In this document: in pieces, positions 49,596 to 55,072 of the stretch
How the letters are laid out: each line of letters begins with the position of its first letter
Numbering within the stretch: position 1 is the first letter of the stretch
The notes under the pieces: generated by a model
Told to the model about the DNA's origin: nothing
Database searches by the model: none
The model's input: the letters and a program-made list of their open reading frames with translations, nothing else
Assembly: GCA_029238515.1 (NCBI GenBank)
Contig: JAQWFW010000034.1
Location: 62,001 to 126,000, forward strand
Direction: 5' to 3'
DNA: 64,000 nt
Origin: Flavobacteriaceae bacterium
Lineage (GTDB): Bacteria > Bacteroidota > Bacteroidia > Flavobacteriales > Flavobacteriaceae
Position numbers and translations under genes: made by a program

Positions 49596-52289
49596 ATGAT
49601 TGAAGAACAAGACCATATTCCAGAAGAAAACACACAAAGTCATGAAACCATCACCAGAGTAACTGGGATGTACAAGGATTGGTTTTTGGACTATGCTTCA
49701 TATGTAATTTTGGAGCGTGCTGTTCCTGCAATCGAAGACGGATTTAAGCCCGTTCAGCGTCGTATTTTGCATTCCATGAAAGATTTGGACGATGGGCGTT
49801 ACAATAAGGTAGCCAATATTGTAGGTCATACTATGCAATATCATCCACATGGAGATGCTAGTATTGCCGATGCTATGGTTCAGATTGGGCAAAAAGATTT
49901 ATTGATTGATACGCAAGGGAACTGGGGAAACATTCTTACAGGAGACCGTGCTGCGGCTTCTCGATATATTGAAGCGCGACTTTCGAAATTTGCTCTAGAT
50001 GTTGTCTTTAATCCAAAAACAACAGAATGGCAGGCTTCTTATGATGGACGCCGAAAAGAGCCCATCAATTTGCCTGTAAAATTCCCATTGCTTTTGGCGC
50101 AAGGTGCAGAAGGGATTGCCGTTGGGCTTTCAACCAAAGTATTGCCGCATAATTTTATTGAACTCGTAGATGCTTCGATTAAGCACCTTCAAGGTAAACG
50201 TTTTAGCATCGTTCCAGATTTCGCTACAGGTGGAATTGCAGATTTCACAAACTATAATGACGGTTTACGTGGAGGAAAAGTACGTTGTAGAGCACGCATC
50301 AGTCAATTGAATAAAAATACGCTGGTGATTACGGAGGTTCCTTTTGGAACAACGACTTCATCTCTAATTGACTCCATCCTTAAAGCCAATGATAAAGGCA
50401 AAATAAAAATCAAAAAGATTGAAGACAATACAGCGGCCGAAGTTGAAATTTTAATCCACTTACCCTCTGGTATTTCTCCTGATAAAACTATTGATGCTTT
50501 GTTTGCTTTTACCAACTGTGAAACCTCAATTTCACCTCTTGGTTGTGTAATTGAAGACAACAAACCCCTGTTTGTTGGCGTGTCAGAAATGTTGCGTCAT
50601 TCTACAAACCACACTGTAGAGCTTCTAAAACTTGAACTTGAAATAAAACTCAAAGAATTAGAAGAGCAATGGCACTTCGCATCGTTAGAACGTATTTTTA
50701 TCGAAAAGAGAATTTATCGTGATATCGAAGAAGAGGAAACCTGGGAAGGTGTTATTGCAGCCATTGATCGAGGATTACAACCGCACATCAACCACCTGAA
50801 ACGTGCTATTACCACAGAGGATATCACGCGGCTAACTGAAATTAGAATCAAAAGAATTTCAAAATTTGATATTGATAAAGCACAGCAAAAAATAGAAGCT
50901 TTAGAAGATCAAATTGAAGAAACAAAAGGGTATTTGGCCACCATCATAGACTATGCTATTGATTACTTTAAGCGCTTGAAATCAGATTATGGAAAAGGGA
51001 AAGAACGAAAAACGGAAATAAAAGTATTTGCTGATGTAGACGCGACTAAAGTTGTGATTAGAAACACAAAACTTTACGTCAACAGAGAAGAAGGTTTTGT
51101 AGGTACCGGTATGCGTCGTGACGAATATGTGTGTGATTGTAGTGATATTGATGACATTATTGTGTTTACCAAAAGCGGTAAAATGATGGTCACTAAAGTG
51201 GATACCAAAACATTTGTAGGTAAGAATATCATACATGTAGCAGTATTCAAGAAAAAAGATACCCGAACGGTCTACAACATGATATATAAAGACGGAAAAG
51301 GAGGGGCGTCTTATATCAAACGCTTTGCTGTGACGTCCATTACACGTGATCGCGAATATGATCTAACCACAGGAAAACCACAAACCAATGTGTTGTATTT
51401 TTCCGCAAACCCCAATGGAGAAGCTGAGGTTGTAACTGTCTTATTGCGTCAAGTAGGAAGCATTAAAAAATTGAAATGGGATGTCGATTTTTCAAGCATC
51501 TCGATAAAAGGTAGAGGAACAAAAGGAAATATTGTTACAAAACACGCCGTAAAGCGTATCGAGCTCAAAGAAAGAGGCGTAAGCACACTCAAGCCACGCA
51601 AAATATGGTTCGACAACACCATACAGCGTTTAAACGTCGATGGACGAGGAGATTTGATTGGTGAATTCAGAGGGGAAGACCGCTTGTTGGTCATCACGCA
51701 ATCTGGAATTGTAAAAACAATTATTCCTGAAATTACAGTACATTTTAGTGAAGATATGATTGTATTGGAAAAATGGATTCCCAAAAAACCTATTTCTGCT
51801 ATTTATTATGATGGCGCCAAAGAAAAGTATTTTGTGAAGCGCTTTCTGATTGAGAATGAAAATAAAGAAGATGTTTTTATTTCTTCTCATGCTTCAAGTA
51901 CGCTAGAAATTGTAAGTACAGACTGGCGTCCTGTTGTCGATATAACTTTTGCTAAAGACAGAGGAAAAGCTAGAAAACCCAACCAAACCATTGATATTGA
52001 GCAATTTATAGATGTAAAAGGTATTTCTGCTCAAGGAAATCAATTGTCTCGTCAAAAAGTAAATCAAATAGATTTATTGGAACCTTTGCCCTATGAAGCA
52101 CCAGAAACGATGCATGCTGATGAGTTGGAGGTAGTAGATGAAATAGAAGTTTCGGGACATACAGCAGAAGTAACGCCAACACCTTCGGAGGTAACTTCAG
52201 AAGACCTGGAACATCCTACGGATGAGCCAACAGTATCAAATGATGATGCAAATTCCTCAACGGAAGAAGGGCAAATTACGTTATTTTAA
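49596..52289 (+). CDS. parC: DNA topoisomerase IV subunit A
   Basis: An 897-residue A subunit. The catalytic Tyr lies in GDRAAASRYIEARLS; PVQRRILHSM and YHPHGDASIADAMV form the winged-helix/quinolone region; a coiled coil spans about 420-470; beta-propeller blades follow from about 500 (for example GKMMVTKVDTKTFVGKN). The last 60 residues are acidic, Thr/Ser-rich and probably disordered, ending in GQITLF. That ending resembles a sliding-clamp-binding peptide. It follows parE with no gap and overlaps the convergent lipoprotein gene by 4 bases. Confidence 0.93.
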   Translation: MIEEQDHIPEENTQSHETITRVTGMYKDWFLDYASYVILERAVPAIEDGFKPVQRRILHSMKDLDDGRYNKVANIVGHTMQYHPHGDASIADAMVQIGQKDLLIDTQGNWGNILTGDRAAASRYIEARLSKFALDVVFNPKTTEWQASYDGRRKEPINLPVKFPLLLAQGAEGIAVGLSTKVLPHNFIELVDASIKHLQGKRFSIVPDFATGGIADFTNYNDGLRGGKVRCRARISQLNKNTLVITEVPFGTTTSSLIDSILKANDKGKIKIKKIEDNTAAEVEILIHLPSGISPDKTIDALFAFTNCETSISPLGCVIEDNKPLFVGVSEMLRHSTNHTVELLKLELEIKLKELEEQWHFASLERIFIEKRIYRDIEEEETWEGVIAAIDRGLQPHINHLKRAITTEDITRLTEIRIKRISKFDIDKAQQKIEALEDQIEETKGYLATIIDYAIDYFKRLKSDYGKGKERKTEIKVFADVDATKVVIRNTKLYVNREEGFVGTGMRRDEYVCDCSDIDDIIVFTKSGKMMVTKVDTKTFVGKNIIHVAVFKKKDTRTVYNMIYKDGKGGASYIKRFAVTSITRDREYDLTTGKPQTNVLYFSANPNGEAEVVTVLLRQVGSIKKLKWDVDFSSISIKGRGTKGNIVTKHAVKRIELKERGVSTLKPRKIWFDNTIQRLNVDGRGDLIGEFRGEDRLLVITQSGIVKTIIPEITVHFSEDMIVLEKWIPKKPISAIYYDGAKEKYFVKRFLIENENKEDVFISSHASSTLEIVSTDWRPVVDITFAKDRGKARKPNQTIDIEQFIDVKGISAQGNQLSRQKVNQIDLLEPLPYEAPETMHADELEVVDEIEVSGHTAEVTPTPSEVTSEDLEHPTDEPTVSNDDANSSTEEGQITLF

Positions 52290-52654
52290 TCGACACGTTT
52301 GGCATTGCCTTTCTGCTTGATGGGGCTGCCAACATATCCGTATTCAAAAGTATAGCCATCTTTAGAGGTAGTTAAGATCTTCAGGTGTACATCTTTCTGT
52401 TCAGCTCTATTTTTCGGGTTTATGGTTCTGAAAACCATCTCACAGTCATTGATCCATCGTACCGAGGCGCTATCTGTTTTAGAGTTAAAACGTTCAATTT
52501 GTAAATTATTAGATCGAGTAAATTCCGAAACATAAGCTGTGCCATCAATAATGACTGTACTCTGGAACGCACCTGTTTTAAAATCTTGACAGTTGCGCTC
52601 AACCTGATAACAAGAAAGACACGAAATAAAAAGGAATAAATAAATAGATTTCAT
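52286..52654 (-). CDS. Small lipoprotein, unknown
   Basis: A 122-residue exported protein with a short lipoprotein signal (MKSIYLFLFISCLSC; lipid Cys15). The rest contains beta-type strands and three more Cys (two conserved-looking, in ERNCQDF and NDCEMVF). Homologues beside parC are sometimes labelled 'DNA topoisomerase IV' by proximity; the sequence gives no support for that. A -7 box 4 nt from the ATG makes it independent of its neighbours. Confidence 0.72.
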   Translation of the reverse strand: MKSIYLFLFISCLSCYQVERNCQDFKTGAFQSTVIIDGTAYVSEFTRSNNLQIERFNSKTDSASVRWINDCEMVFRTINPKNRAEQKDVHLKILTTSKDGYTFEYGYVGSPIKQKGNAKRVD

Positions 52655-52682: not shown

Positions 52683-53075
52683 CTATTTCAACACATCAGG
52701 ATCATAATTTCCAAAAGTACCATCTTTAAAGAAAATCACAATACGCTCAATATCTTTCGAGAAGTGCTTAGGATTGGCTTTTGTAGTTTCCGGTTGACCA
52801 ATACCACCAATTTTTGCTTTTTCGCCAACTGATGGAGTAGTGGAGGGTATTGAATTGATCATCTCCCCCGTATTATTAAGTAGCCAATACAAGTTAATGT
52901 CTTGAAATGCCATATTTAATTTTAGTATAAAATCTAAACTGGGTTTATTTCGCCCACTCAATACGTGTGAAATACTGGATCTTTGTACACGAATCAATTC
53001 TGCAAAAGCAGAAGCCGACAGGCCATAATAGGTCATTATTTTGTTCAGTCGTTCACTAAAATCTGTAGTATTCAT
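52683..53075 (-). CDS. XRE-family helix-turn-helix regulator
   Basis: A 130-residue DNA-binding protein. The HTH_3/XRE domain covers residues 1-60: FSERLNKIMTYYGLSASAFA, VQRSSISHVLSGRNKPSLDF is the recognition region. The C-terminal half (about 75-130: KAKIGGIGQ, IERIVIFFKDGTFGNYDPD) may be a dimerisation or sensor part. It is divergent from an M14 peptidase across 280 bp holding several TTTACA-N2-TGTAAA sites, one on its own promoter, so it probably represses itself and the peptidase. Start at 53075 or the adjoining ATG at 53078. Confidence 0.85.
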   Translation of the reverse strand: MNTTDFSERLNKIMTYYGLSASAFAELIRVQRSSISHVLSGRNKPSLDFILKLNMAFQDINLYWLLNNTGEMINSIPSTTPSVGEKAKIGGIGQPETTKANPKHFSKDIERIVIFFKDGTFGNYDPDVLK

Positions 53076-53082
53076 CATAGAT

Positions 53083-53119
53083 TACAAATGTATATAAAAT
53101 TATTATTTACAAGTGTAAA
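53083..53119. promoter_or_regulatory. Operators A and B over the XRE promoter
   Basis: Site A (TACA-AA-TGTA, 53083-53092) covers the minus-strand -7 box TACATTTG (53085-53092). Site B (TTTACA-AG-TGTAAA, 53106-53119, perfect 6-2-6) covers the minus-strand -33 TTG (53110-53112), 17 nt away. The centres are 25 bp apart. The layout predicts repression by blocking polymerase. Confidence 0.6.
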
Positions 53120-53272
53120 ACATTCTAAATTGGATTATTTTTACCTTAAAATAGATTAAAATTTATTAGATTAAAACTTTATATAATTATATTTAAATTA
53201 CTGGTAAACAATGTTTTATGTAAATTTTAATAATCGGAAAATAAAATTTACATTTAATCTATGATTTTTGTA

Positions 53273-53341
53273 TACAGTTGTAAACAAAATAAGTTTTTTT
53301 AAATGTTTACAGATGTAAAAAACATAATGTTTACATTTGTG
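53273..53341. promoter_or_regulatory. Operators C, D and E upstream of the M14 gene
   Basis: Site C (TACA-GT-TGTA, 53273-53282), site D (TTTACA-GA-TGTAAA, 53306-53319, perfect) and site E (TTTACA-TT-TGTGTT, 53330-53343, degenerate right half). Site E contains the plus-strand -7 box TACATTTG (53332-53339), 19 nt before the M14 ATG. D and E centres are 24 bp apart, mirroring A/B. Extra half sites occur at 53219 and 53247. Confidence 0.6.
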
Positions 53342-53358
53342 TTTTCTAAAATTATGCG

Positions 53359-54492
53359 ATGCAAGCACTTGATGATTTGGTCTCAAAATATAGCCACATG
53401 AAAGCATCTGACCTAGCTGGTCGATACATAACAAATGCTGATATTTTGCCTTTGCTTAATAACCTATCAGAAGAATTTTCTACTGAAATTATAGGTCATT
53501 CAGAGCAAAATCGTCCAATTTACAGCGTTGCTGTCGGAAAAGGGGCAACCAAAATCTTGATTTGGTCTCAAATGCACGGTAATGAATCCACCTGTACAAA
53601 AGCTCTTTTCGATGTATTTAACTTCTTAAAATTGGCATCTAGTAGTTATATTTTACAGCACTGTTCTTTGGTTATTATTCCAATTCTCAATCCTGACGGT
53701 GCTGAGGTGTACACACGTCACAATGCAAATAATGTAGACTTAAACAGAGATGCAACTCAGCTGACTCAGAAAGAAAGTAAAGTCTTGCGCAAGGTTTTTG
53801 ATGCGTTCAAACCTGATTACGGATTTAATATGCATGATCAACGAACTCTTTTTAATGTTGGACAAAGCGATAAACCAGCAACAGTGAGCTTTCTTGCTAC
53901 AGCTCAGGACGTCCAATTGTCCTTAACCCCGAACCGTTTGCGCGCAATGTCTGTGATTCATCAGATGAATTTGTGCTTACAGCAATTAATTCCAGGGCAA
54001 ATAGGTCGTTTTGATGACGCTTTCAACATCAACTGTGTTGGTGATTATTTTCAAGCGCAAGGCGTAGCAACAATTTTGTTTGAGGCAGGCCATTTTCCAG
54101 ACGATTATAACAGAGAAGAGACCAGAAAATTCATTGCTTTGTCTATTCTTGAAGCTTTATCAGTCATTAGTTCTGGGACTGTTTCCGAAAACGACCTGAA
54201 CTATTATTTAGAAATTCCAGAAAATGACACTTTATTTTTTGATATACTCCTGAAAAATGTATTGATATCAAGTGAAGCGCAAGAACACACAATCGATATT
54301 GGAATTACATATCAGGAAACTCTAACCAATCATAAGATATCTTTTCTACCCCAAATAAAGATCAAAGGAGATCTATCTTCACATTTCGGGCACATTTCAT
54401 TGAATCTTAATCAGACTGCATTAGATAGCTCCAAACAAGCTTTAAAGGTACTGGGAAGAGATTTTTGCGACATTATCACAAAAAATTGTTAA
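53359..54492 (+). CDS. M14-type zinc carboxypeptidase, cytoplasmic
   Basis: A 377-residue metallopeptidase of the M14 family without signal peptide. Zinc ligands are in HGNEST (H-x-x-E, near residue 73) and NMHDQRT (third His); IPILNPDGAEVY and NNVDLNRDA form the substrate-binding loop and Arg, and LFEAGHF gives the catalytic Glu. The C-terminal third (about 270-377) is beta-rich and unassigned. Substrate unknown; cytoplasmic M14 proteins cleave peptides or amide-linked conjugates. Controlled, in all likelihood, by the divergent XRE regulator. Confidence 0.87.
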   Translation: MQALDDLVSKYSHMKASDLAGRYITNADILPLLNNLSEEFSTEIIGHSEQNRPIYSVAVGKGATKILIWSQMHGNESTCTKALFDVFNFLKLASSSYILQHCSLVIIPILNPDGAEVYTRHNANNVDLNRDATQLTQKESKVLRKVFDAFKPDYGFNMHDQRTLFNVGQSDKPATVSFLATAQDVQLSLTPNRLRAMSVIHQMNLCLQQLIPGQIGRFDDAFNINCVGDYFQAQGVATILFEAGHFPDDYNREETRKFIALSILEALSVISSGTVSENDLNYYLEIPENDTLFFDILLKNVLISSEAQEHTIDIGITYQETLTNHKISFLPQIKIKGDLSSHFGHISLNLNQTALDSSKQALKVLGRDFCDIITKNC

Positions 54493-54592: not shown

Positions 54593-55072
54593 ATGGCTAA
54601 GTTCAAACTAGACGAAATCGATCACCAAATCCTCAATATGCTCATAGACAATACGCGTATTCCATTTACAGATATTGCAAAAAAGCTACTCATTTCTGCT
54701 GGAACTGTTCATGTTAGAGTAAAGAAAATGGAAGATGCCAAAATCATCAAAGGATCTTCACTGACTTTAGATTATCAGAAGCTGGGTTATACCTTTATTG
54801 CGTATGTTGGTATTTTTCTTCAAAATACCTCACAAACAAAATTTGTTTTACAACGCATAAAAGATATTCCACATGTTACTGTGGCGCACATCACAACAGG
54901 GAAGTTTAATATTTTTTGTAAAATACGTGCAAAGAGTACAACACACGCCAAAGAGATCATCTTTAAAATTGATGATATTGAAGGTATTTACAGAACTGAA
55001 ACAATGATTTCTTTAGAAGAAAGTATCAATGACAAGAAACGTTTGATGCATTCAATTTTTAATGAATTGTAG
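54593..55072 (+). CDS. Lrp/AsnC family transcriptional regulator
   Basis: A 159-residue regulator. The N-terminal winged helix includes LDEIDHQILNMLIDNTRIPF and GTVHVRVKKMEDAKIIKG; the RAM domain covers about 70-150, with ITTGKFNIFCKIRA at the effector pocket. It is distinct from the protein at 1526. It follows the M14 peptidase gene by 100 bp with its own -7 box and converges on aroB. Its amino-acid signal is unknown; proximity to proline dehydrogenase is only suggestive. Confidence 0.92.
   Translation: MAKFKLDEIDHQILNMLIDNTRIPFTDIAKKLLISAGTVHVRVKKMEDAKIIKGSSLTLDYQKLGYTFIAYVGIFLQNTSQTKFVLQRIKDIPHVTVAHITTGKFNIFCKIRAKSTTHAKEIIFKIDDIEGIYRTETMISLEESINDKKRLMHSIFNEL

Follow-up and report, generated by a model that had tools for sequence, protein, structure and literature searches.

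How the divergent promoters of a regulator gene and a peptidase gene might be controlled by the palindromes lying between them is the question raised by a locus in a 64,000-nucleotide stretch of Flavobacteriaceae DNA (GCA_029238515.1, contig JAQWFW010000034.1, positions 62,001 to 126,000), referred to here as the window. The reading that we favour, with a probability of about 0.72, is that the XRE-family protein encoded at this locus is a private autorepressor which shuts both divergent promoters, probably by looping two phased clusters of operators.

The XRE-family regulator (131 aa; 52683-53078, minus strand) has an N-terminal HTH, which matches HTH_3 (PF01381) with 28.4 bits, above the Pfam gathering score of 23, followed by a disordered linker (residues 80-106) and a C-terminal beta-hairpin (residues 113-125). 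An AlphaFold2 model of the monomer, with a mean pLDDT of 75.9 and values below 50 in the linker, suggests a DNA-binding dimer in which a tether bears another surface for contacts. Assignment as a HigA antitoxin was rejected, the match to TIGR02607 reaching 26.4 bits against a cut-off of 47.7. Downstream of this gene lies a small lipoprotein-like gene (52286-52654) with no Pfam or NCBIfam match, which remains in several genomes after the XRE gene has been lost.

The divergent gene (53359-54492, plus strand) encodes a protein of 377 aa in which no signal peptide was apparent by eye. Judged by its PF00246 match (44.2 bits), its fold, its zinc ligands and its catalytic residues, this protein is an M14 zinc carboxypeptidase. 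In fact, H73, E76, R120, N129, R130, H159 and E242, matched to CPA numbering by reading the alignment, are invariant, and a fold search returned the carboxypeptidase fold with a Z score of 24.9 to PDB entry 3l2n, the closest folds (Z about 25) being those of pancreatic enzymes and of CCP-like ones from bacteria. Its beta-rich C-terminal part, residues about 285-355, is barely covered by these PDB matches and could form a domain of its own. A role as the murein tripeptide amidase MpaA was discarded, since the M14 protein scores 28 bits against the PRK10602 equivalog cut-off of 157. Orthologues of the XRE protein were found in 51 of 60 relatives and those of the M14 protein in 46 of the 60, and the two genes are divergent in most. 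An Lrp/AsnC-family regulator gene (54593-55072, plus strand) follows directly 3' of the M14 gene, both in the window and at every XRE-less M14 locus read; it is treated as a conserved neighbour only, and its membership in the switch is putative.

The XRE and M14 genes stand 280 bp apart, and the G+C content of this gap is 16%. The sequence-only reading had placed five copies of TTTACA-N2-TGTAAA in it, two of them perfect, together with additional half sites, and all were recovered at the positions given: site A, ATTACAAATGTATA, at 53081-53094 (two mismatches); site B, TTTACAAGTGTAAA, at 53106-53119 (perfect); site C, TATACAGTTGTAAA, at 53271-53284 (one mismatch), 35 bp upstream of D; site D, TTTACAGATGTAAA, at 53306-53319 (perfect), 200 bp from B; and site E, TTTACATTTGTGTT, at 53330-53343 (three mismatches). 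The mirror-like arrangement described earlier, with B and D lying 24-25 bp from A and E, also held, the spacings being 25 bp for A-B and 24 bp for D-E. Base composition does not account for the array: two perfect copies were obtained in 0 of 5000 dinucleotide shuffles of the gap (shuffle mean 0.002), three copies with at most one mismatch likewise in 0 of 5000, and four copies with at most two mismatches in 2 of 5000. The consensus drawn from 282 sites is the symmetric (G)TTTACA-WW-TGTAAA(C).

The flavobacterial -7 box has been described as TAnnTTTG, located at -12 to -5 (PMC9723704), and the operator contains this element whenever its centre is TT as read in the direction of the gene. Among relatives the box is found in 77 of 81 B sites, read in the XRE direction, and in 73 of 75 E sites, read in the M14 direction, while it is present in only 19 of 106 D sites; as the scoring matrix was symmetric, no direction was favoured in these counts. 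In most relatives, site D, between the two promoter sites, is thus by sequence a pure operator. In the window, the octamer TACATTTG lies at 53332-53339 on the plus strand within site E, where sequence and consensus predict it as the M14 -7 box, and again within site A on the minus strand (53092-53085), in agreement with the earlier observation that A and E share it. The proposal that both sites act as -7 boxes survives for E and fails as a rule for A, since most relatives use B. Similarly, a -33 TTG within B is possible in the window (53112-53110, 17 bp from the box in A), but it is no rule of the family, the B position in the relatives being itself the -7 box. Which site serves the XRE gene in the window is uncertain, as B there has a CT centre and reads TACACTTG, one mismatch from the box, and the exact box is in A. 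With A as the -7 box the XRE leader would be 1-2 bases long, and with B about 26 bases. Leaderless mRNAs make up 5.5% in F. psychrophilum (PMC9723704); the nearly leaderless mRNA derived from A would therefore be of an uncommon kind, and the XRE start in the window's genus could depend on either A or B. In any case, the predicted XRE and M14 -7 boxes are more than 200 bp apart, so that the divergent promoters do not overlap.

This coincidence raises the possibility that the motif is no operator at all and simply represents a strong promoter element of the -7 type (TTTACATTTG), as could be argued from the -7 consensus contained in B and E and from the off-locus copies, such as that before a SPOR-like gene, which resemble plain -7 boxes. 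It is nevertheless very improbable, given that the palindrome is symmetric over 282 sites, that the D sites are the best conserved although they have no -7 box, and that M14 genes without an XRE neighbour keep their promoters and not the array. According to the autorepressor reading, the XRE protein would bind the (G)TTTACA-WW-TGTAAA(C) copies that lie between its own gene and the divergent M14 gene. The -7 boxes of the two promoters would be formed by one site on the XRE side and by the last site on the M14 side, where repressor would contend with polymerase for one and the same stretch. Since operator and -7 box would consist of the same bases, bound repressor would exclude RNA polymerase at both promoters.

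Repression rather than activation is, however, something that we infer. An XRE protein acting as an activator, or as both activator and repressor in the way that RcoLS20 does at its own promoter, is a rather improbable alternative. At low concentration RcoLS20 does act as an activator of its own promoter (PMC4207663), and two sites, C and D, are located on the upstream side of the M14 -7 box; nevertheless, B and E are -7 boxes, from which a bound protein should exclude polymerase.

The ownership of the sites was addressed by comparison of loci. Through an M14 profile, 80 further named flavobacterial loci were collected, 70 of them with an adjacent XRE gene; these being the 80 loci that match the query best, the set is biased towards near relatives. 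With the XRE-less locus L055 added to these 80 and two truncated loci removed, at least two sites were found upstream of the M14 gene at 68 of 70 loci with an adjacent XRE gene and at 0 of 9 without it (Fisher p 2.7e-10), four independent supported pairs all being concordant. An XRE orthologue elsewhere in the genome was found in none of the nine genomes with XRE-less M14 genes (eight searched together, the ninth being G001). Moreover, the first 30 orthologous XRE loci all carry the array except L025, which ends at a contig edge. The clade of Zobellia, Maribacter and Arenibacter has no site B and shows other spacings (172, 215 and 237). The expectation that the motif would be found near orthologues of both genes in a flavobacterial search is borne out by the adjacent pairs.

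The converse situation also occurs. XRE genes without an M14 partner keep the array in other families of the same order (L164, L166, L167, L170, L172 and L175) and at L199, L200, L201 and L209, which include other orders of the class, and in genome G032 the M14 gene was lost and the array retained. Since the array tracks the XRE gene both ways, being lost with it and kept without M14, it belongs to the XRE protein, and the comparative evidence thus supports the earlier claim of an autoregulatory XRE array over both divergent promoters. The array is likely older than the link between XRE and M14. As it has outlasted the M14 gene in G032, the M14-side sites may serve XRE autoregulation more than the M14 gene. 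At L174 a small lipoprotein gene is inserted between the array and M14, so that the array may now drive another gene. At L200 and L201, which belong to another order, the XRE gene and its array, including the 35-bp step, lie downstream of a recF-like gene and the array is located about 200 bp upstream of the XRE gene.

The same pattern bears on whether another regulator could own the sites, for instance a LexA-like S24 regulator of the Bacteroidetes. The half sites are indeed similar, one such regulator binding TTAC-AAATT-GTAA (PMC8565304), but the dyad spacer is 5 bp there, with spacer changes abolishing binding by both regulators tested (PMC8565304), and the inner spacer here is 4 bp. Furthermore, the XRE protein has no S24 match in a Pfam scan, and M14 loci that have lost the XRE gene have no array. 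Foreign ownership is accordingly given next to no weight, and a LexA-like SOS regulator in particular was rejected on spacer length, on the S24 domain missing in the Pfam scan and on the pattern of loss.

A further property, unseen in the sequence-only reading, is that the two operator clusters are, on comparative evidence, in helical register. In this comparison, B stands for the best match found between 15 and 45 bp upstream of the XRE start, and D for the best match found between 150 and 300 bp upstream of XRE that has a second site 24 bp on. Over 70 loci, the B-D distances were 185-187 bp (3 loci), 190 (1), 200-203 (5), 210-215 (23), 222-224 (31) and 233-234 (7), with none between those classes, 66 of the 70 falling in 200-203, 210-215, 222-224 or 233-234 and the distances clustering at about 190, 201, 213, 223 and 233 bp. 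The window's own genus holds the off-register class of 185-187 bp. When changes in this distance were placed on the M14 protein tree, the 34 steps comprised 19 of 1-2 bp, none of 3-8 bp, 13 of 9-11 bp and 2 of 13-14 bp, and zero steps of 3-8 bp were obtained under every penalty tried. For the M14-Lrp gap, which served as a control on this tree, changes of 3-8 bp made up 6 of 19 at one penalty and 3 of 19 at the other. Helical periods of 10-11 bp fit equally well. A second scan, by pattern search at any distance of 200-230 bp, covered 219 genomes that almost all represent different genera and gave 29 matches, 27 of them in the earlier classes, or 23 of 25 once four already-used genomes were removed, some of the others possibly sharing species with the named loci; the binomial p of 9e-9 is only indicative because of this partial overlap and the shared ancestry of species.

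These data have to be weighed against an explanation with no looping, in which XRE dimers bind the clusters independently, each promoter being blocked locally, and the spacing follows from another constraint such as DNA curvature or supercoiling-coupled divergent promoters. In its favour, there is a -7 box within both clusters already, and the within-cluster spacings of 24 and 35 bp could suffice for local cooperativity. Still, we consider it unlikely, given that none of the 34 steps measures 3-8 bp and in view of the recurrence of the same classes in further genomes; XRE genes with no M14 partner retain a distal site too, at 179 (L166), 191 (L167), 191 (L170) and 202 bp (L164). In the looping autorepressor, dimers at both clusters would probably touch, perhaps via the conserved C-terminal hairpin, and a loop of about 190-234 bp would close, strengthening direct occlusion; for loop closure, the clusters would have to keep their helical register. 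A signal, perhaps some peptide connected with the substrate of the peptidase, might then release the XRE protein, with induction of both genes. A broader version, held tentatively and at slightly below even odds, is that of an ancient looping XRE autoregulator of the Bacteroidia that predates M14, its spacing evolving by whole helical turns while the partner changes.

Several described systems share parts of this arrangement. AraC and LacI form phase-dependent short loops of 90-210 bp, whose phasing was shown by engineered insertions; they belong to unrelated protein families, and here the phasing comes from natural variation. In E. coli, the local LysR-type regulator PgrR stands beside mpaA, a gene for a cytoplasmic M14 peptidase, and the likeness lies in a local regulator adjoining such a gene. 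Lambda CI and HTH phage repressors use 14-17 bp palindromes arrayed over divergent promoters, with cooperative binding and looping. The XRE locus resembles lambda CI in its HTH repressor and palindrome array over divergent promoters, but has no S24 cleavage domain, would form a short loop as opposed to one of 2.3 kb (PMC4207663) and is not in a prophage.

By analogy, the nearest described mechanism appears to be that of RcoLS20 from plasmid pLS20 of Bacillus subtilis. This XRE regulator forms tetramers and acts through phased operators 75 bp apart (PMC4207663), a 5-bp insertion destroying regulation of its Pc-Pr switch (PMC4207663). Both cases present one XRE regulator, divergent promoters including its own, two operator clusters and dependence on helical phase, the last deduced here from sequence comparison. 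RcoLS20, however, is found on a Firmicute plasmid, with overlapping promoters, a 75-bp spacer containing a static bend, a tetramer and conjugation genes, whereas the present system is found on Bacteroidia chromosomes, with separate promoters, clusters about 190-234 bp apart and a peptidase or no partner. Since the promoters overlap in one and are separate in the other, a similar mechanism is indicated and not the same system. Neither the motif nor the XRE/M14 gene pair was found to have been described before in the open-access literature, which is not proof of absence.

The regulatory logic of the Bacteroidia is poorly known, and the locus offers a candidate for a regulator that is both widespread and self-contained. 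Its predicted operator is defined, a -7 box would double as operator, and the spacing rule is testable. If looping is true, the natural spacing variants across genera would represent helical phase under long-term selection, and, should the ancient-loop reading also be true, a natural record of DNA looping over many genera. In addition, the peptidase and the signal could be an entry to a cytoplasmic peptide pathway.

As regards the rest of the genome, the perfect motif occurs exactly twice in 1.72 Mb, both copies being in the XRE/M14 gap, and for this reason a regulon is not indicated. The motif with one mismatch occurs at 30 sites, compared with 27 for a reversed control. A regulon was therefore rejected, perfect off-locus sites, among those read, being mostly inside genes and one-mismatch sites at the control level. 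Motif frequency had been put forward as a means of refuting the whole proposal; with the off-locus motif at background, it excludes a regulon and leaves the local switch untouched. A recurrent exception is a single motif copy 15-28 bp upstream of a gene for a SPOR-like secreted protein in four species of the genus (L223:1226-1239 in the window genome, L177:1262, L180:1306 and L183:1247). This gene is divergent from a cytochrome-c gene and has no array there; its upstream site looks like a -7 box, and could be a second target.
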